A stretch of 64,000 bases of DNA from Streptomyces violaceusniger Tu 4113 (GTDB lineage: Bacteria; Actinomycetota; Actinomycetes; Streptomycetales; Streptomycetaceae), in assembly GCF_000147815.2 (NCBI RefSeq), contig NC_015957.1, forward strand, positions 2,604,001 through 2,668,000, written 5' to 3'. Positions 16,342-31,908 of the stretch are shown here, piece by piece. The translations under genes were made by a program, and so were the position numbers. The notes below the pieces were generated by a model. It did not search any database and was not told the origin of the DNA. It worked only from the letters and a program-made list of their open reading frames with translations. Numbering within the stretch: the first letter of the stretch is position 1; every line of letters begins with the position of its first letter.

Positions 16342-16348
16342 GGTCATC
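16342..16348 (+). repeat. Flanking direct repeat GGTCATC, left copy (target duplication)
   Basis: The same 7 bases follow the right inverted repeat at 31597-31603. The inner five, GTCAT, are the likely true target duplication if the terminal C/G is counted as transposon. Removing one copy restores the merR frame. Confidence 0.85.
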
Positions 16349-16386
16349 GGGGTTGAGTAGCAGCGGTACAGCCATTAACGCTAAGC
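16349..16386 (+). repeat. Tn3 terminal inverted repeat, left (IRL)
   Basis: 38 bases beginning GGGGTTGAGTAGCAGC and ending TTAACGCTAAGC. It is the exact reverse complement of 31559-31596. Length, GGGG start and TAAG near the inner end are typical of Tn3-family ends. Confidence 0.95.
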
Positions 16387-16449
16387 CCGTGATCACGGCC
16401 CCGGACTCCCAGCTTTGTCCCCAGGGGCAAAGTAACCCGCTGGTTGATT

Positions 16450-17032
16450 TCAGGACTTCGGGGCGGCGGTCTTCTTGGGTTGGCGGGGCACGGTCTTGGT
16501 CTTGTCAAGGTGCCCGTACACCGTCGACCTTGGCACGCTGAACATGTCGGCGATCTGCTGGACGGTCTTCTCTCGCTCGTCGTAGAGCCGTTGGGCGAGC
16601 GCGGCCTGGTCCTCGGTGAGCTTCGGCCGGCGCCCGCCAACTCGGCCCCGGGCGCGGGCGGAGGCAAGCCCGTCGTTGGTGTTCGCCACGATCAGTTCGC
16701 GCTGGAGCTCGGCCAGCACGGACAGCATCCCGAACATCGCCCGTCCCTCCATCGTGGACGTGTCGATGCCTTGCTCAATCACGTGCAGCCCGATGCCGCG
16801 CTCGCGCAGGTCGGCGCCGAGCGTCACCAGGTGGAGCAGGGAGCGGGAGAGCCGGTCGAGCCGGGTGACCTTCAACCTGTCGCCCTCGCGCAACAACTGG
16901 AGCACGAGGTCGAGCTTCGGCCGGGATGCCTTCGCGCCGCTCGCGGTGTCGACGTGGATGTTGTCGCGGTCGACCCCGGCCCGCAGTAGGGCGTCGATCT
17001 GATGATCGGGGTTCTGGTCGGCGGTCGAGACC
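16450..17032 (-). pseudogene. tnpR: Tn3 resolvase gene tnpR, codons 8-200 (split by nested insertion)
   Basis: Serine recombinase. The piece begins VSTADQNPDHQIDALLRAGV with the catalytic serine in RVST, then DRLSRSLLHLVTLGADLRER and MFGMLSVLAELQRELI. The C-terminal helix-turn-helix is LTEDQAALAQRLYDEREKTV with VPRSTVYGHL. The first seven codons (MLIGYAR) are at 23970-23989. Together they total 603 nt, 200 residues plus stop. The reading frame is still open leftward into the inserted DNA up to 17124, so a chimeric protein with a foreign N-terminus could be made. It lacks the first beta strand and Tyr of the fold and is probably inactive. Confidence 0.9.
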
Positions 17033-17039
17033 CGCGCGT
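17033..17039 (+). repeat. Crossover core CGCGCGT, left junction of nested element
   Basis: In the original tnpR this is the reverse complement of ACGCGCG within TAC GCG CGG (Tyr-Ala-Arg). It is identical to 23970-23976. A 6-8 bp core is normal for tyrosine recombinases. Confidence 0.85.
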
Positions 17040-17138
17040 TAGCTCTGCGGTTTGAGCGTGTCTCGTGAGGGTGAAGTTCTGTCCCTCGTACGAGTGTTAG
17101 CTCTTGCTCTGTCTCGTGCCTCACTCCAGGTTCGTTCC

Positions 17139-18566
17139 GTGATCCTGCACTACTTCAGTTCCGCCGGGTGGGAAGAGTGGGGCCTGTACGAGCGGCCCGT
17201 CATCCGGGAGACCATGCCCGTCCTCATCGACGAGGACCTCTGCTTCGAGGACGCTGCGGTGCCTCGGCCGACGGTGGTGATGAACCTGTGGCTCCGGGAG
17301 TTACCGGTGAGCGGGGCGCCGTCGCCGAAGTCGTGGCGTACGTACGCCCAGGCGCTCAAGGGCTGGGTGGAGTTTCTCGGGCGCCCGCCGGATCCCGGTC
17401 TTCGCTGATCGGCAGCGGCTTCGGGATGCGTTGTCGATGTACGCCGAGTACCGGCTGTCCGGGCCGCTGGAGGTGCGGCTGAGCTCGGCGAGTTGGAATC
17501 TGGCGGTCAAGACGCTGTCGTCCTTCTACCGGTGGGCGGCGGCCGAGGGGTACGCGCCGACGGTCCCGTTCTCCTACGTGCGCCAGTCGATGACCCGCCC
17601 GGACGGTGCGCGGGTGGAGGTCACCAGGAACCTGGCGACGGTGCGTTCGGGCAACGCGCGCGCGACGCGGAAGTACCTGGAGAGGCCGTACGCTGAGCTG
17701 CTGATGCAGGCCCTGGCGGGCAACGACCCGGCGGGTGAGCGGGATGTCTCGTTCCGGGGGCGGGAGACCGGTCGCAACGCGGCCGTGATCGGCCTGGCGC
17801 TGTCCAGCGGGCTGCGGTCGCAGGAGTTCACGCATCTGACGGTCTACGAGCTGCCGCCGCTGCCGCGCCGCCGCACGGCGGTGCCGGTGCCGCTGGTGCT
17901 CGCTCCGCCGACGGCGAAGGGCAGGAAGGGCCGGTCGACGTGGATCGGTTACGAGGACCTGGCCCGGGTCCACGACTACATCGGCTGGGAGCGGGCCGCG
18001 GCGGCGGAGGGCTCGCGCTGGCAGCCCTGTGATCCGCTGTTCGTCGAGGCCCCGACTCACGACGGCGCGCTGATCAACGGAATGCGACGCCGCTGGCACA
18101 CCCTCACCCCGGCCGAGCGGCTGCGGCTGGTGGCACCCGGCGGAGGCAGCGCCCTGCTGGCAGTGCAGTCCGGCGGAAGCCATTCGTCGACTGGGCGACC
18201 GTTCTGCGCCGGACCGCGCTACGGATCCGGGACCGCTTTGAGTCGTCCTTCCCACATGTCCATCCCCATGTCACCAGGCACACCTTCGCGATGGCCACGC
18301 TGGAGCGGCTGGTACGCGGCTACTACCAGCAGGCCGCCCAGCTCGTCGTGGACACGGGCGGCGACGACGCCCTGGCGCTCTATCTGACCAAGGCCGATCC
18401 CCTGCTGGTGCTGCGTGATTTGTTAGGACATACCAGTGCCGCCACTACTCAGGCGTATCTGCATCTGCTCGACATCCAGCGGATCTACCGGGACGCCTAC
18501 GCGACCGCCGGAGGCGCGTTGACCGTGGATGCCGACGCGGTCGCCGAGTTCGAGGGCGAGGTCTGA
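17139..18566 (+). pseudogene. Tyrosine recombinase 1 (TnpA-like), two frameshifts
   Basis: Three frames together give one site-specific integrase of about 475 residues. The core-binding part (to about 17395) has WGLYERPVIRETMPVLIDED and KSWRTYAQALKGWVEFLGR. One extra base near 17396 shifts to DPVFADRQRLRDALSMYAEY. The catalytic part has the first active-site arginine in SSGLRSQEFTHL. A one-base loss near 18175 shifts to KPFVDWATVLRRTALRIRD, then box II HPHVTRHTFAM (His-x-x-Arg) and LLGHTSAATTQAYLHLLD with the active-site His and Tyr. All catalytic residues survive but are not in one frame. It ends overlapping the next gene by one base (TGATG). Confidence 0.85.
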
Positions 18567-20284
18567 TGCCAGCCGAGATCCAGCACCCCCTGGCGGTGCT
18601 GTTCACGCTGCCGGACGGCGTCATCCACCACGGTGTCCTGCACGATCTGCCGAACCAGCAGCTTGCCACGGACCTGGCCGTGGGACTGGTTGCGGCCACG
18701 CATCCGCACGGGCCGATCCGCACCCGCTCGGTGGCCCGGCAGTACATGACGACGATGCGCCGGATGGCGCGCGACCTCGATGCCTGGGGTGTCACGGGCG
18801 GTCTTGCCGATCTGACCCCGGGCACTCTGGTCCAGTACTGGCTGACCTGCGACTACCACCGCGAACGGCGCATCCGCGTGGTGCTGGACGCCTTCCAGGA
18901 GACAGCCGGAGGACTGGACCCGGGTATCTGCCGTCACCTGGCCGGGCGGCGGATCAACAAGGTGCAGAAGAGCCGGCCCAACCAGCCCTACAGCGACGGT
19001 GAATGGCGGCGGCTGGAAGCCTCCTGCACCGAACAGATCGCGGCGGCCCGCCGCGCACACCGTCAGGCGCAGGAGGCAGCCGGCCGGGGTGCCGATCCGT
19101 CCGTCCACGGCGTCACCTTCGACAACCTCGCCTGGCTCTGGCTCCACGCGGGCCCCGCGGAGGCGAGAAAGGCCATCGAGCGGTTCGGCACGATGGGCGC
19201 CGGTGTTGACCGGGCTCAGCTCGCAGCGGTCGAAGCCGCGCTGTTCCCGGCCTCGGAGACGGCGTTCGCCTACCTCACGCTGTTTGCGATGCGCACGGGC
19301 ATCGTCCCTGACGGCATCGACGCCCTGCGACTCGACAACATCACCCGGACCTCGGCGAACACCGTCCTGCTCTCCTACCGCAAGGGCCGCACCGGGGACG
19401 AGGCGCTCAACCTGCCCCGTGATGCCGTGCGGCTGCTGGACCGCTGGCTGGAGCACTCAGCCCAACTACGTGAGCACGCCGGGGATTTGGCTGATCGTGT
19501 ATGGATCTATGTGGGCCGCGACGGACTCGGAAGAGGGCAGGGCAGGATCTTCGACCGCCCCCGCGGCCAGCGCCAGCGCCGGGCCTGGATGGAGTCCTCG
19601 GGCGTGCTCGGCGACGACGGGCAGTCCCTTCCGGTGCACGGCGGCCGGGTCAGGGCCACCTACCACCACCGGCGCGACCGCACGGCCTGGACCGGCCGCA
19701 CGACGATCGACCCCAACCACAGCGCCCGCGTCGAGGGAGATCACTACCTCAGCTCTCACACCCCGGCCCAGCTGGACGCGCTTGAGGGCGTCATCGAGCA
19801 GGCCCAGGGCGATGTGCGGCGCAAGGCCGGCCCGCCGGTCGTGATCAGCGGTGAGGACGCTGCCGCGTTCGCCGCGGGCTTCCCTCGCCTGGTCGAGGAA
19901 GCCGGTCTGGACGCGGCGGCCATCCAGGCTCTGCTCTCCGGTGAGCAGGACATGTTCGTCGCCGCGTGCGCCAGCCCGCTCAACGGCCCGCGCGCCCCGG
20001 CGGGAACCCTGTGTCCGGCCCGGCCCTGGGTGTGTCTGCTGTGTCCGCTCGCCGCGTTCGCGACCCGTCACCTGCCCAATCTGCTCAGGCTCAAGGCGTA
20101 CTTCTCCCGGCAGGCCCAGCAGATGACCACCACGCAGTTCCTGCGGATCTTCGGGCCATACACGGCCCGCCTGGACGAGGACATCCTGCCCCGCTTCGGC
20201 CCGGCCGCCATCGAGGCCGTCACCCGGCAGAGCACCGAGACCGCCGCCTTCTTGCCGCTGCACCTGGAGGAACAGCCCCAGTGA
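18566..20284 (+). CDS. Recombinase-like protein 2 of the nested element (TnpB-like)
   Basis: 572 residues. Its size and place between two recombinase genes, with 1- and 4-base overlaps, match the middle gene of three-recombinase modules. The N-terminal half looks like a core-binding domain (ARQYMTTMRRMARDLDAWGV, LVQYWLTCDYHRERRIRVVL). The region IVPDGIDALRLDNITR sits where box I should be but lacks the usual GLR arginine spacing, and no clear His-x-x-Arg box is seen. Near the end, CPARPWVCLLCPLAAFA carries three cysteines that could bind a metal. It may be a structural or target-choice subunit and not a catalyst. The frame is intact. Confidence 0.7.
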   Translation: MPAEIQHPLAVLFTLPDGVIHHGVLHDLPNQQLATDLAVGLVAATHPHGPIRTRSVARQYMTTMRRMARDLDAWGVTGGLADLTPGTLVQYWLTCDYHRERRIRVVLDAFQETAGGLDPGICRHLAGRRINKVQKSRPNQPYSDGEWRRLEASCTEQIAAARRAHRQAQEAAGRGADPSVHGVTFDNLAWLWLHAGPAEARKAIERFGTMGAGVDRAQLAAVEAALFPASETAFAYLTLFAMRTGIVPDGIDALRLDNITRTSANTVLLSYRKGRTGDEALNLPRDAVRLLDRWLEHSAQLREHAGDLADRVWIYVGRDGLGRGQGRIFDRPRGQRQRRAWMESSGVLGDDGQSLPVHGGRVRATYHHRRDRTAWTGRTTIDPNHSARVEGDHYLSSHTPAQLDALEGVIEQAQGDVRRKAGPPVVISGEDAAAFAAGFPRLVEEAGLDAAAIQALLSGEQDMFVAACASPLNGPRAPAGTLCPARPWVCLLCPLAAFATRHLPNLLRLKAYFSRQAQQMTTTQFLRIFGPYTARLDEDILPRFGPAAIEAVTRQSTETAAFLPLHLEEQPQ

Positions 20285-22452
20285 CGACCGCCCATGCCTC
20301 TTCCCCGGCCCTGGCCGGGCGGCGCCCCTTCCACGGTCTCCCGGTCATCGAGACCGCCGGCCTGCGGCGTGAGCCCGGCAGCCCGCGGCCCGTATTCGAC
20401 CAGGATGTCTGGGACCTGACCGGCCTCGCCGACGCCCCGGTGGTGATGAGCGCACACCGCAAGATCCTGGACTTCACCGCCATCATCAACCCCCGCTGGC
20501 GGCAGGTTGCCCGCGAGTACCTGATGGCGCGGATGGCCCCGCTCCATCCGGACGTGGCCGTCTTGCCGCAGGCGTTCCGCACCCCACTGAACCCGAACTC
20601 CCTCTGGTCCGAACTCAAGCACCTGGCCCTGTGGTTCAACCACCTCACCGCGGTTGGCATCACCTCGCTGTCGCAGGTCCGCCAGCATCACTGCGACGTC
20701 TATCTCGCGGCTGCCTCGCGCAGTGCCACCGACCCTGACCGGCTGCTGTCACCCGCGACCACGGTGGCGATGGTCCGCATTCCACAGTTCCTCGTCCTCT
20801 ATACAGAGATCCTCAGCGATTGCTACCAGCCGGGCTTCACCCCGTGGCCGGGCCGCAGCGCGGACGAGGTCACGGGATATGTACGCAGTGACGAGAACCG
20901 GGTGCCGCCGGTCCCGGACACCCTGTTGCGGCCTCTACTGGCGAACTGTCTGTACTTGCTGGAGACGATCGGCCCGCTGCTGGTGGCCGAGGCGGCCGTG
21001 GCCCGCGCTGCCGACCAACGTGAGGCCGCCTCGCGGCGCGGCCTGCTGGTCACTGAGGTCGATGGCTTGCGCGAGGTCATCGAGCGACGGCGAGAGACCG
21101 GGCTTGCCGCTGCACGGGCCGCTGACGCGACCGTCACTCAGCGCTTGAAGCGCGGATGGGACGCGGGCGACCCGCTCCTGCACATGTCGTGGCATCCGCT
21201 CGTCGTTCAGGCGGCGGGAGCCATGGGACACCGCAGGGACCTGGAGAGACTCCGTCCCGAACTGGAACGGTGGGTAAGTGAGTGCGGCCTTCAGCAGCCC
21301 TGGTGCCGCGATGCAGCCCTGGTGTCCCGCCCCGATGACGGCACCCCGGTGCCCTGGGCCCTGCCGATGGCCCGGCACCAACTGGACGTCACGGTCCATG
21401 CCGTCACCTCTGCCGCCTACTTCCTCACCTCGGCGCTTTCCGGGATGCGTTCCTCGGAACTGGCGGAACTGACGAGCAACTGCCGCCAGCAGGAACAGCG
21501 GCCCGGCGGCGGCACCCGCTACCGCTTGGTCTCCCGCCGCATCAAGGGCGAGGTATTCGGCGGGACCGAGGACGCGTGGGTAGTCACCGAAGACGTGCAC
21601 CTGGCCATCGCCACCGCCGAAGCCCTCACAGGCGCCGCCCCGGGTGAGCGGCTGTTCGCCAAGGCATCCAACAACAGCAACAGCCGCTATACCGCCCTGC
21701 GCGCATGGGTGAACGGCGAGTACGGACAGCGGCTCGGCCTGGAGCCCATCCCCGACGGCCCGGTCAATCCCCGAGCTCTGCGGCGCACGCTCGCGATGGC
21801 CATCGCCCAGCGCCCGCACGGCCTTATGGCCGTGAAACTGCACCTCAAGCATGCCAGCGTCGCCACAGCCGAGGGCTATGCCGCCCGCCCCGGCGGACAC
21901 CAGGCCGCCTTCGCCGCCGAAGTCGCCGCCGAGGAAGAAGCCGAACACCTGCGGTTGACCGTCGCCGCCTACGAGGACTACCAGCGCGGCATCCTGCCCA
22001 GCGGCCAAGGCGCCCGCGACCTCATTGGCGCCTTCAGGGCCGTCGACCAAGTCCTGGGGCGGCACGACGCCGGGCCGGTCACCGTCATCGACGACCGGCG
22101 CGTCGAGCGAGTCCTCAAAGCGAAGGCGAAGACCCTGCACCTCGGTGTCGGCAACTACTGCTGGTTCTCCGATCCGGGCAAGGCATTGTGCCTGAAAATC
22201 GCCGGCACCCCGGACGCAGCCGAGCCGCTGATGGGGATGTGCGACTCGGCCCGCTGCCCGCAGGCCACCCACCACCCCCAGCACCGGCAGATCTGGGCCG
22301 AACACGCCGACAGCACTCGGGCCGTGTTTCTCGGCAACCCCAGACTCTCCAAGCCCGAACGGGCCCGAGCCCAGGCCGCCTTCGACCGTGCCACTCGCAT
22401 CGTCGCCGATATCGACGCTGCCGGCCACCCTGACGAGGAGCCGCGCTCATGA
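20281..22452 (+). CDS. Tyrosine recombinase 3 of the nested element
   Basis: 723 residues from GTG 20281, overlapping the previous stop as GTGA. The catalytic domain is in the C-terminal half: SALSGMRSSELAELTS holds the box I arginine, NPRALRRTLAMAIAQRP the box II arginine (Asn in place of the usual His), and LKHASVATAEGYAAR the late His and the Tyr nucleophile. The last 130 residues contain cysteines in NYCWFSDPGKALCLK and MGMCDSARCPQATHH, a possible zinc-binding tail. It should cut and join DNA at the CGCGCGT core. The frame is intact. Confidence 0.8.
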   Translation: MTTAHASSPALAGRRPFHGLPVIETAGLRREPGSPRPVFDQDVWDLTGLADAPVVMSAHRKILDFTAIINPRWRQVAREYLMARMAPLHPDVAVLPQAFRTPLNPNSLWSELKHLALWFNHLTAVGITSLSQVRQHHCDVYLAAASRSATDPDRLLSPATTVAMVRIPQFLVLYTEILSDCYQPGFTPWPGRSADEVTGYVRSDENRVPPVPDTLLRPLLANCLYLLETIGPLLVAEAAVARAADQREAASRRGLLVTEVDGLREVIERRRETGLAAARAADATVTQRLKRGWDAGDPLLHMSWHPLVVQAAGAMGHRRDLERLRPELERWVSECGLQQPWCRDAALVSRPDDGTPVPWALPMARHQLDVTVHAVTSAAYFLTSALSGMRSSELAELTSNCRQQEQRPGGGTRYRLVSRRIKGEVFGGTEDAWVVTEDVHLAIATAEALTGAAPGERLFAKASNNSNSRYTALRAWVNGEYGQRLGLEPIPDGPVNPRALRRTLAMAIAQRPHGLMAVKLHLKHASVATAEGYAARPGGHQAAFAAEVAAEEEAEHLRLTVAAYEDYQRGILPSGQGARDLIGAFRAVDQVLGRHDAGPVTVIDDRRVERVLKAKAKTLHLGVGNYCWFSDPGKALCLKIAGTPDAAEPLMGMCDSARCPQATHHPQHRQIWAEHADSTRAVFLGNPRLSKPERARAQAAFDRATRIVADIDAAGHPDEEPRS

Positions 22453-22875
22453 TGCACAACCCCCAAGCGGAACCCGAGGCCAGGATTCAGAACGCGATGC
22501 GGCAACTTCTCGCCGGGCCCGTTCCCGACGGGCTGAAGTGCGACGTCAAGAGCTTGTGCACCCTCGCAGGAGTACCGCGAGCGACGCTCTACCGCACCTA
22601 CCCACACCTCAAGGCCGAGTTCGACCGTCAGCGCCAAGCCGCCCAGGAAGCCGGACAGCAGCCCGACCCACGCCTGGCTCAGATCGAACGTCTCAAGGCC
22701 GAGGTTGCCACTCTGCGCGAGCGCCTCAGCAGGAAGAACACTGAGGCTAGACGCTCTGAAGGAGTTCCAGGCCACAGCCCTGTCCCGCCTCGCAGCCCAG
22801 CACGAAGAGATCACCACGCTTCGACGACAGCTTGACGCCACCCCGGTGGCGTCAGTCCGCACACTTCCTCGATAG
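22449..22875 (+). pseudogene. Small coiled-coil TnpC-like protein, frameshifted near its end
   Basis: ATG 22449 overlaps the previous stop as ATGA. The first about 100 residues have a helix-turn-helix-like part (LKCDVKSLCTLAGVPRATLY) and a charged coiled coil (ARLAQ/IERLKAEVATLRERLSRKN region). The frame then continues to a stop at 22835 with protein-unlike sequence. One base shift near 22750 gives LKEFQATALSRLAAQHEEIT, then a stop at 22873-22875, which fits the coiled coil much better. This is the small accessory gene of Tn554-like and DUF6262-type modules. Whether the shifted product still works is unknown. Confidence 0.7.
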
Positions 22876-22908
22876 CGTGGAGTTAGACCCGAGTGATGAG
22901 GAGGGCGC

Positions 22909-23826
22909 GTGCGACTCGCGCTGGACGCACTGTTCGCTGACGTGCCCGCGGAGCAGCTCGATGAAGCTCGCGACTTCTACAAGTCGAGGGCGGCAGGCCG
23001 TGGCCCCGGCTCACTGGAGGAGCTGAAGGATGTCCGAGCGAAGAGGTCAGCTCCTCCTGCCGCCGATCCGCCTGCCATCGAAGAGACGATCGAAGCCGCA
23101 GAAGCACGCGTCCCTGTCAGAATCTTCACTCCTATCGACGGTCCGCCGCAGGGCGTCTACCTGGACATACACGGCGGCGGCTTCTACATGGACTCCGCAG
23201 CGCGAGGAGACAAACGCAACCGCGAACTCGCAGACGCCCTCCACCTCGCCGTTGTCAGCGTCGACTACCGGCTGGCCCCCGAGCACCCGTGGCCAGCGGC
23301 ACCCGACGACTGCGAAGCAGCGGCGCTCTGGCTCGTCGAAGAAGCCGATGCCCGCTTCGGAACGTCCCGACTTGCGATCGGCGGGAGCTCCGCGGGAGCC
23401 ACACTCGCCTTGGCGACCCTGCTCCGGCTGAGGGACAGAGATACCGTTGGTCAGTTCACCGGCGCGGCACTCCAATTCGGGACCTACGACCTGAGCGCAC
23501 GAACCCCGGCCGGTCGCCGCATCGCGGACGAATACTTCATCCAGGCGTACGCCGGCCATGTGGAAGACCGCACCGTTCCCGACATCTCTCCCATCTACGG
23601 CGTTCTTCGCGGGCTTCCCCCAACGCTGCTGATCGTCGGAAGCGCAGACGTGTTGCTGGAAGACAACCTGGCGCTGGCAGGTCGGTTGTCAGCGGCTGGC
23701 AATGACGTCGAGCTCCGGGTCTACCCCGACTCACCTCACGGCTTCACGGCCCACCCCACGGCAATGGCCAGGACAGCGCTCAGCAGCGTCGACTCCTGGC
23801 TGCGCGACCGGATTACGCAATCGTAG
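22909..23826 (+). CDS. Alpha/beta hydrolase, hormone-sensitive-lipase type (cargo of nested element)
   Basis: 305 residues, intracellular. The oxyanion-hole motif HGGG is at 88-91, the nucleophile Ser161 in GGSSAG, and the acid and base are Asp247 (GSADVLLEDN) and His277 (DSPHGF). VVSVDYRLAPEHPWPAA is the family strand-turn. It would hydrolyse small carboxylic esters, or inactivate an ester-containing compound. The start is GTG 22909 with GAGGAGG close upstream. It is the only non-recombination gene inside the nested element and, unlike most of its neighbours, has an intact frame, which suggests it is the useful cargo. Confidence 0.92.
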   Translation: MRLALDALFADVPAEQLDEARDFYKSRAAGRGPGSLEELKDVRAKRSAPPAADPPAIEETIEAAEARVPVRIFTPIDGPPQGVYLDIHGGGFYMDSAARGDKRNRELADALHLAVVSVDYRLAPEHPWPAAPDDCEAAALWLVEEADARFGTSRLAIGGSSAGATLALATLLRLRDRDTVGQFTGAALQFGTYDLSARTPAGRRIADEYFIQAYAGHVEDRTVPDISPIYGVLRGLPPTLLIVGSADVLLEDNLALAGRLSAAGNDVELRVYPDSPHGFTAHPTAMARTALSSVDSWLRDRITQS

Positions 23827-23969
23827 GGACTGACCGCGATCTCGAAGGATCCCAGTCCCAGAGGTCGATTACGTGAGACACAGCCTCGCGCACTCCCGCC
23901 GACGTGGGCGGCAAACCATCAGGCGCGCAGTCGACATCGATCGACCGGACACGTCTCATGCCCGGCTAT

Positions 23970-23989
23970 CGCGCGTAGCCGATGAGCAT
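23970..23989 (-). pseudogene. tnpR: tnpR 5' fragment: first seven codons
   Basis: Read leftward from ATG 23989: ATG CTC ATC GGC TAC GCG CG, that is MLIGYAR, the standard N-terminus of Tn3 resolvases. It then runs into nested-element DNA and stops at once (CGA TAG). The last 7 bases are the core repeat 23970-23976 (CGCGCGT on the plus strand). Confidence 0.9.
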
Positions 23990-23990
23990 G

Positions 23991-24114
23991 TGTCGGAATC
24001 TATCGGGTGCACCGTTCACCGACGCTGTTTTCCGACGCGAGTTTCCGACACTGCCCACCTGCGGGTTCGTGATCACGTCCCCAAGTGTCGGCAGACGATC
24101 GTTTGCCGACACTT
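23991..24114. promoter_or_regulatory. Probable Tn3 res site
   Basis: It lies directly upstream of the original tnpR start, where res sits in this family. It contains repeated TGTCGG/CCGACA boxes: TGTCGGAATC at 23991, CACCGACG near 24017, TTCCGACG near 24029, TTCCGACA near 24043, and a perfect pair of 11-base arms AAGTGTCGGCA (24083-24093) and TGCCGACACTT (24104-24114). The boxes pair into subsites of about 26-34 bp as resolvase dimers need. The tnpR promoter should also be here. Confidence 0.65.
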
Positions 24115-24241
24115 TCGAGTCGGTTCGCGATCCACTCCGGGTTTCGTGCTCGGAGCATCGCGCCGCAGGTACGGCACTCCATCGACGACTGAGCCGGGTC
24201 CGAACAGGATGCCCGCATTCAGCCCCGTAGCCCTGGGCGGT

Positions 24242-27043
24242 TCATGGTTTCAGGGCTCGCAGCTTGTCCCGGAGCTGCTTGGCGTCATCCTCGCGATGCT
24301 GTACTCGGTAGAGATCGGTCGCCTGCTGCCAGCTTTGACCGGCTTGGTCGTGTTGGCCGAGGGCATGGTGGACGTCGCCTATGTGGGCCAGGGTGTTGGC
24401 TTCCTCGTAGGCGTGGCCGATCTCCCGTAGCAGTGCCAGTGCGTGCTGGAAGCGGGTCAGGGCCAGAGTGTGCTGCCCATTCTGGTGGGCCAGGCGGCCC
24501 AGCGTGCCAAGGACGTCTGCCTCGCCGTCCCGTTCCTGGTGACGGCGGAACAGGTCGAGCGAGGTCTCGCCATGGACGCGGGCCTCCTCGTATTGGCCCA
24601 GCCGGGCACAATACAGGGAAACCTGGTTGTGCGCCTGGGCCTCCCAGACCGGCTTTTCCAATGTCTGGAGAAGAGCGAGGGCGTCGCGGGAGTGTTCAAG
24701 CGCCTGCTCATGGTTCTCCTGGCGCTCCCAGGCATAGGCGAGCACCAGGAGAGTATGGACCGTCTGGTCTACGTCCTCGTAGGTCTTGCTCAGGGACAAG
24801 GCCTGGTGAAGGTGGTCCAGTGCCTCATCGTGCAGGTCGGACCTGATGCAGGCGATGCCCAGGTTGCGACGGGCGAAGATCTCCGCCTCCGAGTCGCCGA
24901 GTTTCCGGGTTGCCTCCAACCCCCTTCTCCAGGCGGCGAGTTGGGCCTGCAGATGGCCGTTGCGGCGGTGAAAGGTGTCCAGTACCCACGCCATCCGCCA
25001 CACCACGTCGTACCAGCCTGAGTCGGCAGCCAATCGCTGGGTTGCCAGCAACCCGGCGTGCTGGGTCTCTAGCCAGGCCATTGCCTCCGCCTGATCCACC
25101 GGTGCCAGCGGCCGGCAGTCGGCGGACGGCTCAGGGAATTCGATTCTTGTGCGATGCGGGTGCATTAGCTGTTCGGCTTCGCGGGCTGTGTGGAGGTAGA
25201 AATCGGCCAGCCGCCGCAGCGCGACGTTGCGTTCTTGCTGTCGGTCGGTCCGGTGAGCCTGCTCCGCCGCGTACAGGCGCAGCAGGTCGTGCAGGCGATA
25301 CCGGCCGGGTGCGAACTGCTGAACGAGGTGTGCGTTCTCCAGTTCCCGCAGCGCCGCACGTACGGCGGTGACAGGACGGGCGACGAGGCTGGCGCCGGCG
25401 GCTGGCCCGATCTCCGGCCCCGGGGCCAGTCCAACGAGCCGGAATACCTCCGCCGCCCCGACGGTCAGGGCGCGGTACGACACAGTGAAGGCTGATCGCA
25501 CATTGGCCGTCAGGTCACCCGCGTCCAGGCCGTCCAGCCGCGCCGACTCGTCCTGGAGCTCCTCAGCCAGCGCTGTCAGCGGGAAATCCGGATGAGCCGC
25601 AGCGCGGGCTCCCACCACACTGATCGCCAGCGGCAACCCCGAGCAGTGCTCCAGCAAGGCGGCGACGGCTTCCGGTTCGGCCCCTACCCGGTCCTCCCCC
25701 AGGTGGCGGCCCATCAGCTCCCGTGCTTCGGTGTCGGTCAGCACGTCGAGCGTCAGCATCCGGGCCCCGTGGGCGCTTGCCAGCCCGGCCAGCCGTCGGC
25801 GGCTGGTGACCAGCACCGCGCAGGTGGCGCTGCCTGGCAGGAGCGCGGCCGCCTGCTCGGCGTCGGCGGCGTTGTCCAGCACGATAAGCATTCGTTTGCC
25901 CTGGACCAGGCTCCGGTACAGTCCAATCTGAGCCTGCACGTCCCCGGGCACGGCGCCGGAATCCACTCCCAGCGCGTCGAGGAACCCGCGTACCGCCGCG
26001 GCCGGTGTGACAGGGCCTCCCGAGGGATCGAAACCGTGCAGATCGACGTATAGTTGCCCGCCCGGGAACCGGTCGATGTTCTGGTGCGCCCAGTGCAGGG
26101 CCAGCCAGGTCTTTCCGATCCCACCGCTGCCGCCGATCGCGGAGATCACTACGGTCCCGCCAGGCTCACCCACCGAGTCCAACGCCTTGGTGAGCTCCGC
26201 GAACTGGTGCTCCCGGCCGGTGAACCAGCGCGGTCGGCCGGGAAGCTGGCGGGGCACCGGGGCACCCGCCCCGGTGCGGGGGGCGGGCTCTGGCTTCGGG
26301 AGGGTCAGGGCCGCGTCGGCGGTGAGGATCTGCTGGTGTAACTGCTGCAGTGGCTGCCCGGGGTCGGTGCCCAGTTCCCCCGCCAACCGCCGCCGCAGAT
26401 CCTGGTAGCAGGTTAGGGCGTCTGCGGCCCGTCCACTGCGGTACAGGGCGAGCATGAACTGACCGGCCAGTCGCTCGTCCAGCGGGTGCTGCCCGGCGCG
26501 GGCGGTGAGCTCGGGCAGCAACTCGCCGTGCAGCCCGCTCCGTAATCGGATGTCGGCGCTATCCAGTTCGGCCGACAGCCGTTCCCGCTCAAGGGCTTGG
26601 CGCAGATCGCAGAACCACGGGGTATCCACGGTGGCGAACGGCTCCCCACGCCACAGCCCCAGCGCCCGTCCCATCAGCGCCGCCGCCTGCTCGTCGCCGA
26701 CCGTCCGGGCCTTCGCGACCAGGTCCCGGAACCGGTGGAGGTCCACGGCTGCCGCGTCCACCTCCAGGACATAGCCGCCGGGCTGCCGCGTGATCCGCAC
26801 CTCCTCCGCTGCGGCCTCCAGCGTCTGGCGCAGACGGGACAGATAACCGTACAGCGTTCCCCTGACCCGCTGCGGCGCCCGGCCTGCCCACACCCGGTCG
26901 ATGAGCTCGTCGACCGATATCACCCGGTTGGCATCCACGAGCAAAACGGCCAGCACACACCGCTGCCGAAGGTGTCCCACATCCGCCGCACGGCCATCGA
27001 CGCGCACCTCAATTGTGCCGAGTAAGCCGAACTCCACCGCCAT
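24242..27043 (-). CDS. AfsR/SARP-type regulator with BTAD, NB-ARC and TPR domains
   Basis: 933 residues. The N-terminal OmpR-like winged helix (VEFGLLGTIEVRVDGRAADV; LRQRCVLAVLLVDANRVIS) and the bacterial transcriptional activation domain (VDLHRFRDLVAKAR, YRSGRAADALTCYQDLRRRL) fill about 1-250. The NB-ARC ATPase has a P-loop in GGSGGIGKTWLALHW and LIVLDNAADAEQAAALLPGS. TPRs (ALDHLHQALSLSKTYED, ALTRFQHALALLREIGHAYE) fill about 650-930. Such proteins activate secondary-metabolite or secreted-product genes by binding 11-bp-spaced direct repeats. ATG 27043 is preferred; an in-frame ATG at 27112 adds 23 unusual residues. It is transposon cargo, divergent from the small secreted protein. Confidence 0.93.
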   Translation of the reverse strand: MAVEFGLLGTIEVRVDGRAADVGHLRQRCVLAVLLVDANRVISVDELIDRVWAGRAPQRVRGTLYGYLSRLRQTLEAAAEEVRITRQPGGYVLEVDAAAVDLHRFRDLVAKARTVGDEQAAALMGRALGLWRGEPFATVDTPWFCDLRQALERERLSAELDSADIRLRSGLHGELLPELTARAGQHPLDERLAGQFMLALYRSGRAADALTCYQDLRRRLAGELGTDPGQPLQQLHQQILTADAALTLPKPEPAPRTGAGAPVPRQLPGRPRWFTGREHQFAELTKALDSVGEPGGTVVISAIGGSGGIGKTWLALHWAHQNIDRFPGGQLYVDLHGFDPSGGPVTPAAAVRGFLDALGVDSGAVPGDVQAQIGLYRSLVQGKRMLIVLDNAADAEQAAALLPGSATCAVLVTSRRRLAGLASAHGARMLTLDVLTDTEARELMGRHLGEDRVGAEPEAVAALLEHCSGLPLAISVVGARAAAHPDFPLTALAEELQDESARLDGLDAGDLTANVRSAFTVSYRALTVGAAEVFRLVGLAPGPEIGPAAGASLVARPVTAVRAALRELENAHLVQQFAPGRYRLHDLLRLYAAEQAHRTDRQQERNVALRRLADFYLHTAREAEQLMHPHRTRIEFPEPSADCRPLAPVDQAEAMAWLETQHAGLLATQRLAADSGWYDVVWRMAWVLDTFHRRNGHLQAQLAAWRRGLEATRKLGDSEAEIFARRNLGIACIRSDLHDEALDHLHQALSLSKTYEDVDQTVHTLLVLAYAWERQENHEQALEHSRDALALLQTLEKPVWEAQAHNQVSLYCARLGQYEEARVHGETSLDLFRRHQERDGEADVLGTLGRLAHQNGQHTLALTRFQHALALLREIGHAYEEANTLAHIGDVHHALGQHDQAGQSWQQATDLYRVQHREDDAKQLRDKLRALKP

Positions 27044-27099
27044 CCCGACCACCCCCTCGGCCGGAACCCTAGCCCCGGGACAACCGCCCCCACCAGCCG

Positions 27100-27117
27100 A
27101 TTCAAGGTTCATCCAAG
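27100..27117 (+). promoter_or_regulatory. Candidate SARP box: 11-bp-period direct repeat
   Basis: ATTCAAG (27100-27106) and ATCCAAG (27111-27117) differ by one base and are separated by 4. Eight bases later comes GATACC, a possible -10 element. That spacing is the published architecture for SARP activators. The site lies between the SARP gene and the secreted-protein gene and points at the latter. Confidence 0.45.
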
Positions 27118-27185
27118 AATCGTCCGATACCCGTCGAACACAGTGATGTCAGTTCCAACCGTCTCCAACAAATAGGGAGAAAACG

Positions 27186-27509
27186 ATGCGACTGCGTCAC
27201 GCACTTGCAAGTGCAGGGCTCGGAACCGCCGTGGCCGTCGGCACGATGGTCGTGCCCGCACAGGCCGCCTCGACGACAACCACAGCGGTGCGCTCCCCCG
27301 CGGCAGCGTGCACGGAGTGGTTCGACAATGCTGGCAGCGGCGGCGCTGAGCGATTCCACGTGCAGTGCCCCGGGTACTACGTGACGGTCTCGGTCACCTG
27401 CAGCTCCGGCTCGCCCATCAACGGACCGAAGCGGTGGGAGTACCAGAAGGCGGAATGCCGCAACGGTGCGTACATCACCAGCGGTAGCTACCGGGCGACT
27501 AGGACCTGA
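27186..27509 (+). CDS. Small secreted cysteine-containing protein
   Basis: 107 residues. The signal peptide is about residues 1-27 (LASAGLGTAVAVGTMVVPAQ then AAS). The mature part of about 80 residues has four cysteines (C42, C61, C71, C91), enough for two disulfides, and aromatic residues typical of a small beta-rich secreted protein. The family is not recognised. GGGAGA lies 5 bases before the ATG. It is followed by a strong terminator, so it is a single-gene transcript. The divergent SARP gene and the repeat between them suggest SARP control. It could be an inhibitor, a toxin or a surface-active protein; nothing decides. Confidence 0.85.
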   Translation: MRLRHALASAGLGTAVAVGTMVVPAQAASTTTTAVRSPAAACTEWFDNAGSGGAERFHVQCPGYYVTVSVTCSSGSPINGPKRWEYQKAECRNGAYITSGSYRATRT

Positions 27510-27557
27510 GGCGGAAACGCGTTCAGCACGAACCAGGGCCATTCTCAGACCGCAACA

Positions 27558-27595
27558 GGCCGACCGGGCGGTTTCTCCCCCGGTCGGCCGGTTTT
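27558..27595 (+). terminator. Rho-independent terminator after the secreted-protein gene
   Basis: Perfect 11-bp arms GGCCGACCGGG and CCCGGTCGGCC with a 10-base loop, followed by GGTTTT. Confidence 0.88.
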
Positions 27596-27664
27596 GTGCG
27601 ACATTCCGTGAATTCGTGCTTGTGCAGCACCAGCGGCCAGGGGTAACCGGGGCGAGGACTCCGG

Positions 27665-28330
27665 GTGAGCGAGATCGATCCGTACGACGAGCTGAAGAAG
27701 CAGATGGCCGAGGCGGAGGAGCGGTTCGCCTCCGAGGTCGACGGCGCGACGATGACGGTGTCCACCGGCACCTGTCGTTCCGGTTCCCGAAGGCGTCCTG
27801 GGGGCCGTGCGAGGTGGTCACCTGGCCCGGCGTACTGACCCTGCGTGGCGGCCTGGGCTGCTGGTCGTTCACCCGCGTTGAGGACATGTTCGAGTTCTTC
27901 CGGCCCAGCCGGAACGTGACCCGCGTCAACCCGACGTACTGGGCGCAGAAGCTGGTTCCGGGCTCCGGCAGCGAGGTCAAGGAGTACGCCGAGGACCGCG
28001 CCCGCGTCTATGTGCGGCAGGCCGTGGCCGAGGCGGTGAAGCGGCACGAGCACATCCGAGCCGAGGACGCCGAGGAATGGCTGTGGTCGGACTACGCTGG
28101 GCTGAGTTCGACACCGAGGCGGCTCTGATGCGCACGCTGGGCCGTTTCGAGGACCGCGTTGACGCCGACCGGCCCCTTGGGGACTCCCTGGAGGAGTTCA
28201 CGGCCTCCGAGTTCCACTTCCCCGTGCGCGACTGGGACCTGTACCGCTACAACGACTGGTTCCTGCTCTCCTGCGTGGTGCTGCCCTGGCCGTCGAGCAG
28301 TTTGACGCTGCCCTGGTCCCCGTCGGCTGA
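27665..28330 (+). pseudogene. Decayed actinobacterial phage/plasmid-type hypothetical gene, at least three frameshifts
   Basis: Pieces in successive frames form one protein of about 220 residues: SEIDPYDELKKQMAEAEERF, then HRHLSFRFPKASWGPCEVVT and GGLGCWSFTRVEDMFEFFRP, then WAEFDTEAALMRTLGRFEDR and DWDLYRYNDWFLLSCVVLPW, then AVEQFDAALVPVG and TGA at 28328. I recall the same layout (MTV strand, FSRLTDMFEFFR block, late DYDWWFLW block) from a hypothetical family common in actinophages and plasmids; its function is unknown. Each step moves the frame by one base in the same sense. The start GTG 27665 follows GAGGACTCCGG. Confidence 0.75.
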
Positions 28331-28333
28331 GGT

Positions 28334-31300
28334 TCAGACCAGGCTGCCCTCCTCTTCCTCGTCCTCGGGGATCGGGGCGTCCGGGTCGCGCAGCGGGCGC
28401 AGGATGCCCCCGGCCGGGGTGGATGGGGTGAAGCTGTAGCGGCCCAGCACGTTGAGGTTCTTGTGCTTGAGCGGGGACAGCCGTGCGATGTCGTCGTCGC
28501 TGATCTCGTGTCCCTCGGCGCGGAGCTGGGCGACGGCGGCGTCGATGTAGCGGGTGGTCCACAGGACGACGGCGTTCAGGACCAGGCCGAGCGAGCCGAG
28601 CTGGTCCTCCATGCCGTCGCGGTACGCCTGGTGGATGGTGCCCTTCTTGCCGTGGCAGATGTCCCGGGCGAGGCTGTGGCGGGACTCCTGCACGCTGAGC
28701 TGCTTGCCCATCTGACGGCGGTAGGTGTCGTCGACGGGGTCGACGACCTGCAGCAGGTGCAGGGTCTTGGCGACGCGTCCGTATTCGGCGAACGCCTGCC
28801 CCAGCGGGGCCGGCTTGCTTGCGCTGCCGAACATCCGCAGCAGGTCGTACGCGCGGACCTGGTTGGTGACCAGGGAACCGGCCACGCGGAGCATGTCCTC
28901 CCAGTGCTGGATGACCTTGTTCAGGTTCACCTTGTTCTTCGCCAGGTCCTCCAAAACTCCGTACTCGCCGGTCTCGACGCCGGGCATCTCCGCGCGCCAG
29001 AACCGCTGGTCGTCCAGGTCACGGAAGCGCGGGGAGAAGTTGTATCCCAGGATCTTGAACAGGCCGAACACCATGTCGGAGTAGGAGGCGTTGTCGGTGG
29101 CGACCATCTCCGGCTTCACCCCGCCATCCAGGTTCAGCAGGGCGTCCAGGATGTGCAGGGAGTCGCGCGGCGTGCCGGGCACCACCATCTGCCCGATGCC
29201 CGCGACCTGGTCATTCACTGCGTTCAGCCAGGTGATCCCGCGCTTGAATCCGAAGTACTTCGGATTCGGTGCGGCGTTGATGGTGCGGACCGGGACGACG
29301 AACCGCAGTCCGTCCACCGAGGCGAGCAGCCCGTTGCCCCAGTGCGCAACGACGGGCACCTCTGCCTGGGCGGCGATCAGCGTGGCGTTGGCCTCGGCGA
29401 TGGTGTCGGCGCGTAGGTAGTACTGGTCGACGTGGGAGAGCCGCGAGCGGGTCAGGGCCACGTTGCTCGGGTTGATGACCGGGGTGAGCCCGATGTTGCA
29501 GCTCTCGCTCACCAGCAGCGCCACCACCGAGGTGGCCAGGTCCTCCATGCGGGTCTTGCCGTCGCCCAGGTGCACGAACGCGTCCAGGAACCCGGTCCAG
29601 GAGTGCACCTCGAACAGCAGGTCCGGCAGCTCGACCTTGGGCAGCATCCGTTCCACCCGCCGGCGCAGCCAGCGCAGCGACTTGGGCTCGCCCAGCGCCC
29701 CGAGCTTGTCGACGTTCAGCTTCGCGCGGCCCCCGCCTTCGGGGAACTCGATGGACACCTTCGCTTCCGCGCCGGCCTCTTCGAGGCGGTCGCCCATCTG
29801 CTTCCACGCGGCGTCCAGCACCCGCACCAGGTCGGTGAGGTGCTCGGTGACGGGCATGTCCAGGCTCAGGCCCGCCAGAACGTCCTCCCGTACGGCTGCC
29901 CAGGGCTTGCCGTCCAGCAGACGGGCGCGCGGGTTGGAGTAGCGGTGTGACGGGGAGGCGAAGATGTTGCGGCCCATCAACGCCCGGTACAGCTGCTCCA
30001 GCACGCACACCACATAGGCGTCGCGGTCGACCGCGCCCTGCGGCAGGTCCTTATTCGCGTACACCGCCTTGCGCCAGTACGGCGGCACCACCTTCTCGTC
30101 GACTTCCCGCTTCAGCAGCGGCTTCTCGCCCACGCGGCGCCGGGAGAGGGCGGGCAGGCACCTGACCGCGGCCAGGATGCGCTTGCCGGCCGGGGCCGCG
30201 CCGAGCATCTTCGTGTCACCCAGCAGCGACAGGAACGGCTTGACGGTGTTGTAGCGCAGCGCCAGCGCCTCGCGTATCGCGATCTCCGCCGAGTCGTCGT
30301 CCTCCGGAACAAGGCTGGCCACCAGCGTGGCCGCGCTCCACAGCTGGGCCCTCGGCGCGACCTCCTCCAGGGCCCGCCACATCGCGTCCGCGTCCATGGC
30401 GCCGCCGGTCTGCGCGAGGTGCTCCAGCTCCTCCATGACCACCTTGGAGATGCGGGCCGTGATGCGCGACGCCCTCTCCAGCTGCGGCAGGGTGGAGAGT
30501 CGTTCCTTGTCGGTACGCCTCTTCGCGGTACTGATCAGGCGCGTGGCCATCAGCACCGAGAACAGGTCCAATGCCTCGTCGATCGCCTTGGCTTCCAGGT
30601 GCCGCATCACCGCGGTGAGCATCGCCGTGCGCTTGGGATCACTCGCCCGCTCCAGCGTCGCCGCCTTCGACCCCAGGCCGTACCGGGCCAAAGCGGCCAG
30701 CCGGTTCGGCGGCAGCTTGTCCAGCTTGAGGCGGCCCAGGCGATACACCGCGATCTCGTCCACCCGCTGCAGGGCACCCTTCATCGCCGTACCTGTCGTC
30801 CTCGTCGGCGGCCGGCGCAACTCCTCCAGGTACGAAAACCGCTTCCCCTCCGGCACCACCAGCAGTCCTGCCAGGTCCCCGGGCAGGGACTTGTCCGCGC
30901 GGAACGTCGCCTTGGCCACCGTCGCGTGCAGCCGCTTGTCCGCGATCTGGCGGACCTCGGACACCTGCCGCGCGAGCACCGACACCCCGGGCAGCAGCAC
31001 CCGGTTCTTCCGCAGCCAGCCCACCGCGTGATCGAACAGCGCCTTCGGGCCCTCCGCATGCGCTGTCCACGCCCGCCCATGCAGGAACGTACGGAACCTC
31101 CGCGACCACTGCGGGTCCTCGTACTCGTGGTACTCGTAGACGTCCCGGATCTCCCACGAGTGCTCATATGTCGTCGGCTGCCGCTCGGTGTACCGCTTGA
31201 CCGCCGAGACGTCCTCGATGCCAAGCTGCCCTGCGATGTGCTCGATGACCACCCACGGCACATCGAGCGGATCGTCCGTCAGGAACCGGCCGATGTAGCG

Positions 31301-31477
31301 CACCGTGCACATCTGCAGCGCGAACCCAAGCCGGTTGTGATCCCCGCGCCGCTTCGCGATCAGCTTCCGATCCTCGTCGTCGAGGTAGAAGAACCGCTCC
31401 AGCTCCGGGCGCGTCGGCTCCTCATTGAACTTCCCGTACGACGCGGCCTGTTCGTCGGTCAAAAACTCCACTGGCAT
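28334..31477 (-). CDS. tnpA: Tn3-family transposase TnpA
   Basis: 1047 residues, full length for the family, with no stop or shift. The N-terminal DNA-binding half opens VEFLTDEQAASYGKFNEEPT. The DDE catalytic core is in the C-terminal half: Asp722 in VDGLRFVVPVR, Asp795 in ATDNASYSDMVFGLF, with the acidic third residue expected after the GYNFSPRFRDL block. The LDGGVKPEMV and WEDMLRVAGSL stretches are also typical. It binds the 38-bp ends and carries out replicative transposition, leaving a cointegrate. It starts 82 bp inside the right end. It appears functional, unlike the resolvase. Confidence 0.97.
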   Translation of the reverse strand: MPVEFLTDEQAASYGKFNEEPTRPELERFFYLDDEDRKLIAKRRGDHNRLGFALQMCTVRYIGRFLTDDPLDVPWVVIEHIAGQLGIEDVSAVKRYTERQPTTYEHSWEIRDVYEYHEYEDPQWSRRFRTFLHGRAWTAHAEGPKALFDHAVGWLRKNRVLLPGVSVLARQVSEVRQIADKRLHATVAKATFRADKSLPGDLAGLLVVPEGKRFSYLEELRRPPTRTTGTAMKGALQRVDEIAVYRLGRLKLDKLPPNRLAALARYGLGSKAATLERASDPKRTAMLTAVMRHLEAKAIDEALDLFSVLMATRLISTAKRRTDKERLSTLPQLERASRITARISKVVMEELEHLAQTGGAMDADAMWRALEEVAPRAQLWSAATLVASLVPEDDDSAEIAIREALALRYNTVKPFLSLLGDTKMLGAAPAGKRILAAVRCLPALSRRRVGEKPLLKREVDEKVVPPYWRKAVYANKDLPQGAVDRDAYVVCVLEQLYRALMGRNIFASPSHRYSNPRARLLDGKPWAAVREDVLAGLSLDMPVTEHLTDLVRVLDAAWKQMGDRLEEAGAEAKVSIEFPEGGGRAKLNVDKLGALGEPKSLRWLRRRVERMLPKVELPDLLFEVHSWTGFLDAFVHLGDGKTRMEDLATSVVALLVSESCNIGLTPVINPSNVALTRSRLSHVDQYYLRADTIAEANATLIAAQAEVPVVAHWGNGLLASVDGLRFVVPVRTINAAPNPKYFGFKRGITWLNAVNDQVAGIGQMVVPGTPRDSLHILDALLNLDGGVKPEMVATDNASYSDMVFGLFKILGYNFSPRFRDLDDQRFWRAEMPGVETGEYGVLEDLAKNKVNLNKVIQHWEDMLRVAGSLVTNQVRAYDLLRMFGSASKPAPLGQAFAEYGRVAKTLHLLQVVDPVDDTYRRQMGKQLSVQESRHSLARDICHGKKGTIHQAYRDGMEDQLGSLGLVLNAVVLWTTRYIDAAVAQLRAEGHEISDDDIARLSPLKHKNLNVLGRYSFTPSTPAGGILRPLRDPDAPIPEDEEEEGSLV

Positions 31478-31558
31478 GGCGCGTGACCGTACGCGGGCGG
31501 GCGTCGCCGTGCCGCCAACTTCACCGAACCGGAACCGACCCCTCAGACAAGATCAACT

Positions 31559-31596
31559 GCTTAGCGTTAATGGCTGTACCGCTGCTACTCAACCCC
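31559..31596 (-). repeat. Tn3 terminal inverted repeat, right (IRR)
   Basis: 38 bases, exact reverse complement of 16349-16386, beginning GCTTAGCGTTAATGG and ending ACTCAACCCC on the plus strand. The flanking direct repeat GGTCATC follows at 31597-31603. Confidence 0.95.
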
Positions 31597-31908
31597 GGTC
31601 ATCCGCTCCCGCTCCGCCCGCAGCTCGCCCAGCAGATCCGGGCAGGTGGGCACGAGGTGCTCACCGCCGTCGTCGCGGAGGCAGGGCAGGACCTGGGAGA
31701 TGGTCGCCGTCGAGAGCCCGGCCGCCAGCAGCGCGCGGATGCGCCGCACCACTGCCACATCGGACGCGCGGTATGCGCGATAGCCGCTGGGCAGCCGCTC
31801 GGGCTGGAGGAGGCCCTGCTGTTCGTAGTAGCGCAGCAGCCGCTCGCTCACCCCGGTACGGCGGGACAGCTCGCCGATCCGCATGGGCCCTCCTCCGCAC
31901 GCCCTCAC
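31597..31908 (-). pseudogene. merR regulator, first 104 codons (split by the transposon)
   Basis: MerR winged helix: MRIGELSRRTGVSERLLRYY, EQQGLLQPERLPSGYRAYRA, then VVRRIRALLAAGLSTATISQ. The coding part up to ERERMT is native; it then enters the transposon end and stops after GVE. The missing 25 residues are at 16264-16341. The DNA-binding domain is still encoded but the dimerisation helix is cut short, so the regulator is probably inactive or unstable. The ligand class is not clear (no cysteine cluster as in metal sensors). Confidence 0.9.

Follow-up and report, generated by a model that had tools for sequence, protein, structure and literature searches.

A predicted site-specific integrative element of the GInt/SE type with resolvase active-site codons as its attachment site, from Streptomyces violaceusniger Tu 4113

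The window (the whole 64,000-nucleotide stretch that was analyzed, positions 2,604,001 to 2,668,000 of contig NC_015957.1 of Streptomyces violaceusniger Tu 4113) contains a mobile element of 6,937 bp, one core copy included (17033 to 23969, + strand), which splits tnpR, the resolvase gene of a Tn3-family transposon. Very probably this is a site-specific integrative element of the GInt/SE type, with the Gly-Tyr-Ala-Arg | Val-Ser-Thr codons (GYAR|VST) of resolvase genes as its attachment site. That these codons are a chosen target is strongly supported by the insertion points of related copies. In serine resolvases both catalytic residues, Arg and Ser, are encoded within the GYAR|VST stretch. 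The familiar examples of site-specific elements occupy tRNA genes or the ends of genes and cause little damage there. Here the address would be the active-site codons of the resolvase of another mobile element, an insertion point that transposons and plasmids can carry along, and insertion breaks the gene that serves as the address.

Element boundaries and gene reconstruction

The two pieces of tnpR lie on the minus strand at either end of the element. One runs from within Arg-7 to the stop codon (16450 to 17032; PF00239, E 3.1e-37), and the other holds the first codons, MLIGYA and part of Arg-7 (23970 to 23989). An earlier note on this DNA had claimed that removal of 6,937 bp rebuilds a 200-residue resolvase in frame; the two pieces, when joined, do give an open gene for a 200-residue protein, MLIGYARVSTADQN... 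The same note would have been weakened by the lack of an intact tnpR in this context. Such a gene was looked for and is present as a natural, uninterrupted allele in a different genome of the same genus (locus L092), where ATGCTCATCGGCTACGCGCGGGTCTCGACC is continuous across the site. This allele matches the window at 96.3% over 596 bp of the left flank and at 95.1% over 144 bp of the right flank, and its resolvase of 202 residues is 2 longer than the joined window protein. At the level of sequence, an element of 6,937 bp that splits a 200-codon tnpR is confirmed.

The cores (attL and attR) read CGCGCG at both ends, 17033 to 17038 on the left and 23970 to 23975 on the right; strand is not applicable to them. 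Seven bases, CGCGCGT, had been claimed for both junctions and are present there (17033 to 17039 and 23970 to 23976), but the core that is common to the relatives is 6 bp, not 7, and varies with the codons of the target. The seventh base, T, belongs to the element on the left; on the right it is part of the Tyr codon of the target. A fixed CGCGCGT core was rejected because the core follows the target codons. Adjacent to the cores are the terminal repeats, with ends aligned by eye: TTAGCTCTGCGGTTTGAGCGTGTCTC on the left (17039 to 17064, + strand) and an imperfect inverted copy on the right (23947 to 23969, - strand), the reverse complement of which is ATAGCCGGGCATGAGACGTGTCC. The motif GGACAYGTCTCATGC forms the right end of all nine members of the closest clade (see below) in which this end is readable.

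Copies in the same genome

The whole element occurs three times in its own genome, near-identical between differing flanks: in the window, on a 290-kb contig (L005) and on the 10.7-Mb contig (L006). The removable length is 6,937 bp in the window copy, 6,936 bp in L005 and 6,942 bp in L006. A single substitution and a few indels separate the copies, and near-identity stops 8-45 bp past the cores. A search of the genome with recombinase 3 of the element found three identical copies and one distant partial match. All three elements are located at GYAR|VST codons, each in a separate resolvase gene. The L005 and L006 elements interrupt members of a single resolvase subfamily, with 81% identity across 155 bp. 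The host gene in the window matches that of L006 across 42 bp (79% identity), and no match between it and the L005 host was obtained. Pairwise, 14-17 of the first 38 residues of the host proteins agree, an underestimate, as the L005 remnant appears to carry a frameshift.

Relatives of the L005 and L006 host genes were found on Streptomyces plasmids, with the site uninterrupted in six cases and an annotated recombinase gene there in three. Three of the ten Resolvase-domain matches of the genome are the occupied genes; no GYAR-type start was found in the other seven. A consensus of the site, drawn up by eye, agrees with 11 of 12 uninterrupted relatives; no unoccupied match to it exists in the genome.

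Insertion sites in the closest clade

Relatives were collected by a scan of the genome contigs (8 loci), from a sample of the genus (recombinase 3 at E <= 1e-10 in 92 of 392 genomes) and from a sample of the family (recombinase 1 at E <= 1e-100 in 26 of 394 genomes). A phylum-wide sample yielded recombinase 1 at E <= 1e-80 in just 3 of 396 genomes. The tree of recombinase 3 has 71 rows, 22 of them without a target label, and its SH-aLRT support values come from a quick method. Target labels were assigned by reading the flanks before the tree was built, and this was not done blind. Not included as tree rows were the distant partial match L007 and a set of short loci (L001-L004, L016-L044, L085-L089 and L102-L127); for most of the short loci a longer stretch of the same place entered the tree.

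The clade of the window copy consists of 12 rows (SH-aLRT 99). The earlier note had proposed site specificity for the tnpR GYAR-VST codons, and inspection of the other insertion points agrees with it: all ten rows with a readable end are inserted in GYAR|VST codons of resolvase genes. Both ends were read in the window, L005, L006, L015, L090 and L128, the left end only in L009, and the right end only in L010, L012 and L014. Not counted as readable were L008, where the contig ends at both element ends, and L011, the middle piece of the S. natalensis element to which L014 also belongs. Orientation is constant: wherever it could be read, the left end points toward VST and the right end toward GYAR. 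The site varies slightly, with GYGR in L014 and with RTST or RVSK on the other side in L128, L015 and L090. Hosts are Streptomyces, Arthrobacter, another member of the Micrococcaceae and a Microbacterium plasmid. A Pfam Resolvase match confirmed the remainder of the target in the window, L006, L015 and L090; the L128 target is identical to that of L015 at 30 of 38 residues, and L010 shares upstream residues with L128. The target calls for L009, L012 and L014 rest on short motifs.

Spread by parasitizing Tn3-family elements, which had also been suggested, is only part of the picture. The carrier in the window is indeed of this family, and a related TnpA (at least 64% identical) is encoded near the window, L006, L010 and L015 copies, with a distant one (24%) near L014. 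No TnpA was found near L005, L012, L128 and L090 within the stretches examined; a target restricted to Tn3 elements is not supported, and the targets are resolvases generally. The S. natalensis element (L011 and L014) is itself interrupted within recombinase 3, its pieces lying about 12 kb apart on the contig.

Core sequences and proposed mechanism

Across the clade the cores read CGCGCG, CGAGCG, CTGGCG, CGGGCG, CGGGCA, CGCGCA and CGCCCG, and they track the Tyr-Ala-Arg codons of the target. The two cores are equal in four of the six clade insertions read at both ends, which makes these four uninformative on the origin of each core. L006 has CGAGCG at attL and CGCGCG at attR, the latter being the left core of the other two copies in the genome. 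Likewise, in L134, a member of a distant clade treated below, attL is GTCACA and attR is GGCACA, the left core of its twin L133. Both informative same-genome pairs thus fit a footprint rule by which attL holds the six bases of the target and attR those of the donor. L147, at 91% the closest relative of the L006 target, carries the Ala codon seen in the left core of L006. The cores of L090 are also unequal. For SEs and Tn554, the available part of the account gives the same rule, with the six bases of the target kept at attL and those of the donor at attR (PMC10214605).

In the mechanism proposed here, a circular copy would join both element ends through a 6-bp spacer, and the recombinases of the element would exchange this copy with the target. 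The six bases of the target would remain at the left end, and those of the donor would come in at the right end. Splitting tnpR likely inactivates the resolvase of the carrier, and the element probably profits from a stock of similar sites carried by plasmids and transposons.

Genes of the element

Recombinase 1 (17139 to 18566, + strand; about 475 aa, start codon inferred from homolog lengths) is GinA/IntA-like and related to XerC/D, with matches to Xer-type families only below the family cut-offs. Recombinase 2 (18566 to 20284, + strand; 572 aa) is followed by recombinase 3 (20281 to 22452, + strand; 723 aa) and by a small fourth protein in the GinD/TnpC position (22449 to 22835, + strand). 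No NCBIfam model scored above its cut-off for the three recombinases or the small protein. Searches against solved structures gave no match for the profiles of recombinases 2 and 3, and one weak match, to an engineered protein, for recombinase 1.

Recombinase 2 had no Pfam match. Its AlphaFold2 model (pLDDT 74.7, pTM 0.51) gave 14 Foldseek matches at E <= 0.001, every one a tyrosine recombinase, among them XerH, Cre and lambda Int (best E 9.2e-05, TM-scores low), and on this model the protein is assigned the tyrosine-recombinase fold. In the alignment, read by eye, VPDGI occupies the expected position of the first catalytic Arg (Arg I), which the protein lacks; the other boxes are kept, many members having an HxxR-like one, and a Tyr is invariant. 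Recombinase 3 matches PF00589 below the cut-off (E 0.0004). In an alignment of 12 sequences R390 is nearly invariant and R501/R502, H524 and Y533 are invariant, their roles being assigned by eye.

In the window copy the frame of recombinase 1 is broken by two length changes and that of the small protein by one; both are open in L005 and L006, where the small protein has 141 aa. All of these frameshifts fall in short G runs and neither other copy has them. They may be real decay or sequencing error. The cargo gene (22909 to 23826, + strand) encodes an alpha/beta hydrolase of the hormone-sensitive-lipase type (PF07859, E 1.1e-48), which is 93% identical in L010 and L014.

Carrier transposon

The Tn3-family carrier extends from 16348 to 31597, between inverted repeats of 47 bp (16348-16394 and 31551-31597, 94%) that are flanked by the direct repeat GTCAT (16343-16347 and 31598-31602, by eye). 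Its tnpA (28334 to 31477, - strand; PF01526, E 1.1e-126) is an open frame of 1047 aa. A frame of 956 codons between tnpR and tnpA (24242-27112, - strand) looks by eye like a large regulator.

Targets in the wider family

In a sister clade the target is a HAD-like gene, identified by motif, at DVDGPL|NPYA. Both ends were read in L079, the left in L047 and the right in L046; L045 is unreadable. The left end of L046 has no HAD-like target, unlike its right end, which goes against a neat picture. In L079 some 1.8 kb of additional DNA separates the left end from recombinase 1.

A distant clade (11 rows, SH-aLRT 99) appears to target tyrosine recombinase genes, with uneven support from the sequences. 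All nine readable rows (L133, 4920-12301; L134, L061, L062, L063, L067, L131, L144 and L146) are inserted directly after HxxRH-type codons of apparent tyrosine recombinase genes; L059 and L132, at contig ends, were left uncounted. Beyond the element, the target gene continues into a recombinase C-terminus in L063, L067, L133 and L134. The left piece matches Pfam Phage_integrase above the cut-off in L133 and just below it in L061 and L131, and L134 has a weak integrase-domain match; the Pfam scan, which covered every readable row except L067, gave no match for the left pieces of L062, L063, L144 and L146. The call for L062 is made on the motif alone. In L144 and L146 the target may itself be another ginA-like gene, which would make these cases of an element in an element, because the upstream piece matches recombinase 1 at 27-28%.

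Further clades have glycosyltransferase, SNF2 helicase, DUF4244, P-loop ATPase, DNA methylase, transporter and other genes as targets; the clade of L142 and L143 uses SNF2-type helicase genes, which it enters at the codons for DDMGLGKT, by motif a Walker A. The distribution of target types agrees with the recombinase-3 tree: the labels require 24 changes with the unlabelled rows taken as a group, against a mean of 46.2 after shuffling of this same set, and 16 changes without the unlabelled rows; near-copies favor such clustering. Two pairs point to recent movement, since their members are in different host genes. The elements of L057 and L058, from one genome, are 99.98% identical over 6,283 bp, and those of L074 and L141, from two genomes, are identical (10,225 bp shared). 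On an Aminobacter plasmid (L163; an alphaproteobacterium) the same four-gene order is followed by mercury-resistance genes; its proteins are 32%, 23.5% and 28% identical to recombinases 1, 2 and 3, with no match for the small protein.

Alternative explanations and limits

The shared site could reflect descent rather than target choice, from one ancient insertion in a resolvase gene that was later spread by transposition of the carrier or by homologous recombination. Transposition of the carrier in the window, whose terminal repeats are flanked by a direct repeat of 5 bp, could move the element in this way, and L005 and L006 have hosts of one subfamily. Against this, the host genes of the three near-identical copies differ by about 19-21% or are unalignable, the cores follow each target, and the hosts in L128, L015 and L090 differ again, so that descent alone is extremely improbable. 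A more serious competitor, and a real possibility if not the favored one, is a conventional island that excises and integrates by the route of integrative and conjugative elements (ICEs) or GInts, its attL and attR cores arising by heteroduplex repair with no rule for a donor footprint. Heteroduplex repair and variable cores are described for GInts in the available part of Bardaji et al. (PMC5385486), and the four insertions with equal cores are compatible with it, but in both informative pairs attR repeats the left core of another copy, as the SE/Tn554 rule requires; as there are two such pairs, chance could account for them.

Two further alternatives concern the consequence of the insertion for the carrier. 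The element might act as a regulated switch that leaves tnpR when resolvase is needed and whose end meanwhile supplies an N-terminus. A frame with a GTG start does fuse the left end to the rest of tnpR (16450 to 17124, - strand), as it does in all three copies of this genome and in L090, but L128, L015 and the short L009 stretch lack this start. Rescue of the resolvase by a start codon borne by the element is not supported because of these missing starts, and the remnant of the resolvase is further truncated in two of the three own-genome copies (L005 and L006), which leaves the switch highly unlikely. Loss of tnpR might itself be an advantage, if long-lived cointegrates of the carrier bring the element onto new replicons. 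This is rather unlikely. The tnpA gene is open while tnpR is split, and cointegrates are described as long-lived where no external resolvase acts, according to the part of PMC7765201 available; yet four clade loci (L005, L012, L090 and L128) lack a TnpA match within the stretches examined, and no cointegrate was seen, none having been searched for.

Several observations weigh against a site-specific GInt/SE-type element that chooses resolvase codons. The window copy may be immobile on its own, because recombinase 1 and the small protein are broken there, unless the breaks are sequencing errors. Since L005 and L006 have hosts of one subfamily, the targets in this genome are not three unrelated genes. 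Four of the ten readable targets in the clade (L009, L010, L012 and L014) are short readings of one end, L012 being the weakest. The clade is also rare: it was found in 1 of 392 genomes of the genus sample, plus a fragment of 34 residues in another (two candidates per genome were scored), and in 2 of 394 genomes of the family sample. The footprint rule stands on two informative pairs that chance may explain, and the Ala codon of the left core of L006 occurs in only one (L147) of six uninterrupted relatives of the L005 and L006 targets. Circularization, excision and activity were not observed; circularization, the roles of the enzymes and copy-out are inferred.

Significance

No report of a GInt-type insertion in resolvase codons was found in the titles and abstract openings among the literature matches listed. 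So far as these searches show, the target is what is new: the active-site codons of resolvases, together with a related clade on tyrosine recombinases. It may be suggested, tentatively and with considerable doubt, that at least two clades of one GInt/SE-like family are specialized on the catalytic codons of the recombinases of rival mobile elements, one clade on Arg-x-Ser in serine resolvases and another on the HxxRH box in tyrosine recombinases. Site choice would then be an evolved strategy, which offers renewable conserved sites and cripples the resolution or excision of a competitor, so that host DNA stays fused or fixed. Whether mobile elements evolve to attack the recombination machinery of each other becomes a directly testable question, and the element provides an actinobacterial model, with three copies in a single genome, for the poorly known mode of movement of GInts, SEs and Tn554.

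Comparison with known systems

In gene content, terminal repeats and core behavior the element resembles GInt/SE-type elements, relatives of Tn554. The comparisons below are with the available parts of the cited accounts. GInts have been placed as the Tn6488/Tn6571 subfamilies of the Tn554 family (PMC8865565). They have in common with the element three genes of the tyrosine-recombinase type and a small fourth gene at one end with cargo beyond, site-specific insertion at few sites between short flanking repeats that may differ, and one recombinase without the first Arg (PMC5385486, PMC8865565). The four-gene set is present here and open in L005 and L006, and related elements use the same target (10/10 readable rows). 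By contrast, the protein without Arg I is encoded by the second gene, while in GInts the third, GinC, is named. GInts are flanked by imperfect direct repeats of 10-17 nt; the repeat seen here is exact over 6-7 bp and becomes longer solely if a gap is allowed.

SEs have the gene order catalytic, degenerate, catalytic and small, imperfect terminal inverted repeats, and a 6-bp spacer with the target core on the left and the donor core on the right (PMC10214605). Imperfect terminal inverted repeats (aligned by eye) and a 6-bp spacer are found here too. The SE order intA-tfp-intB-srap fits by motif, yet recombinase 2 keeps an HxxR-like box in many members and the invariant Tyr. SEs differ in being reported mainly from Gammaproteobacteria, with bcp, insJ of IS3 and yjjNt as the sites named (PMC10214605).

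Tn554 and its actinobacterial relatives are likewise site-specific, with a long tyrosine recombinase, a TnpC-like partner, a 6-bp footprint and several identical copies per genome (PMC3414803, PMC10214605). Such actinobacterial elements have been known since 2012, their integration sites being unnamed in that account (PMC3414803). Tn554 itself is defined by two recombinases and TnpC, whereas three genes of the recombinase fold and a small protein are found here, which places the element outside that definition. RIT elements also have three recombinases of the tyrosine type in tandem, but these have 315-410 aa with a catalytic Tyr in all three, between 34-bp repeats (PMC10214605); sizes of about 475, 572 and 723 aa and a fourth gene set the present element apart from them. 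Finally, the res-site hunters of the Tn5053 family are mobile elements that similarly seek the resolution system of another element (PMC7765201). They do so by tni transposition and insertion into res DNA, while the site used here is the catalytic codons of the resolvase gene.

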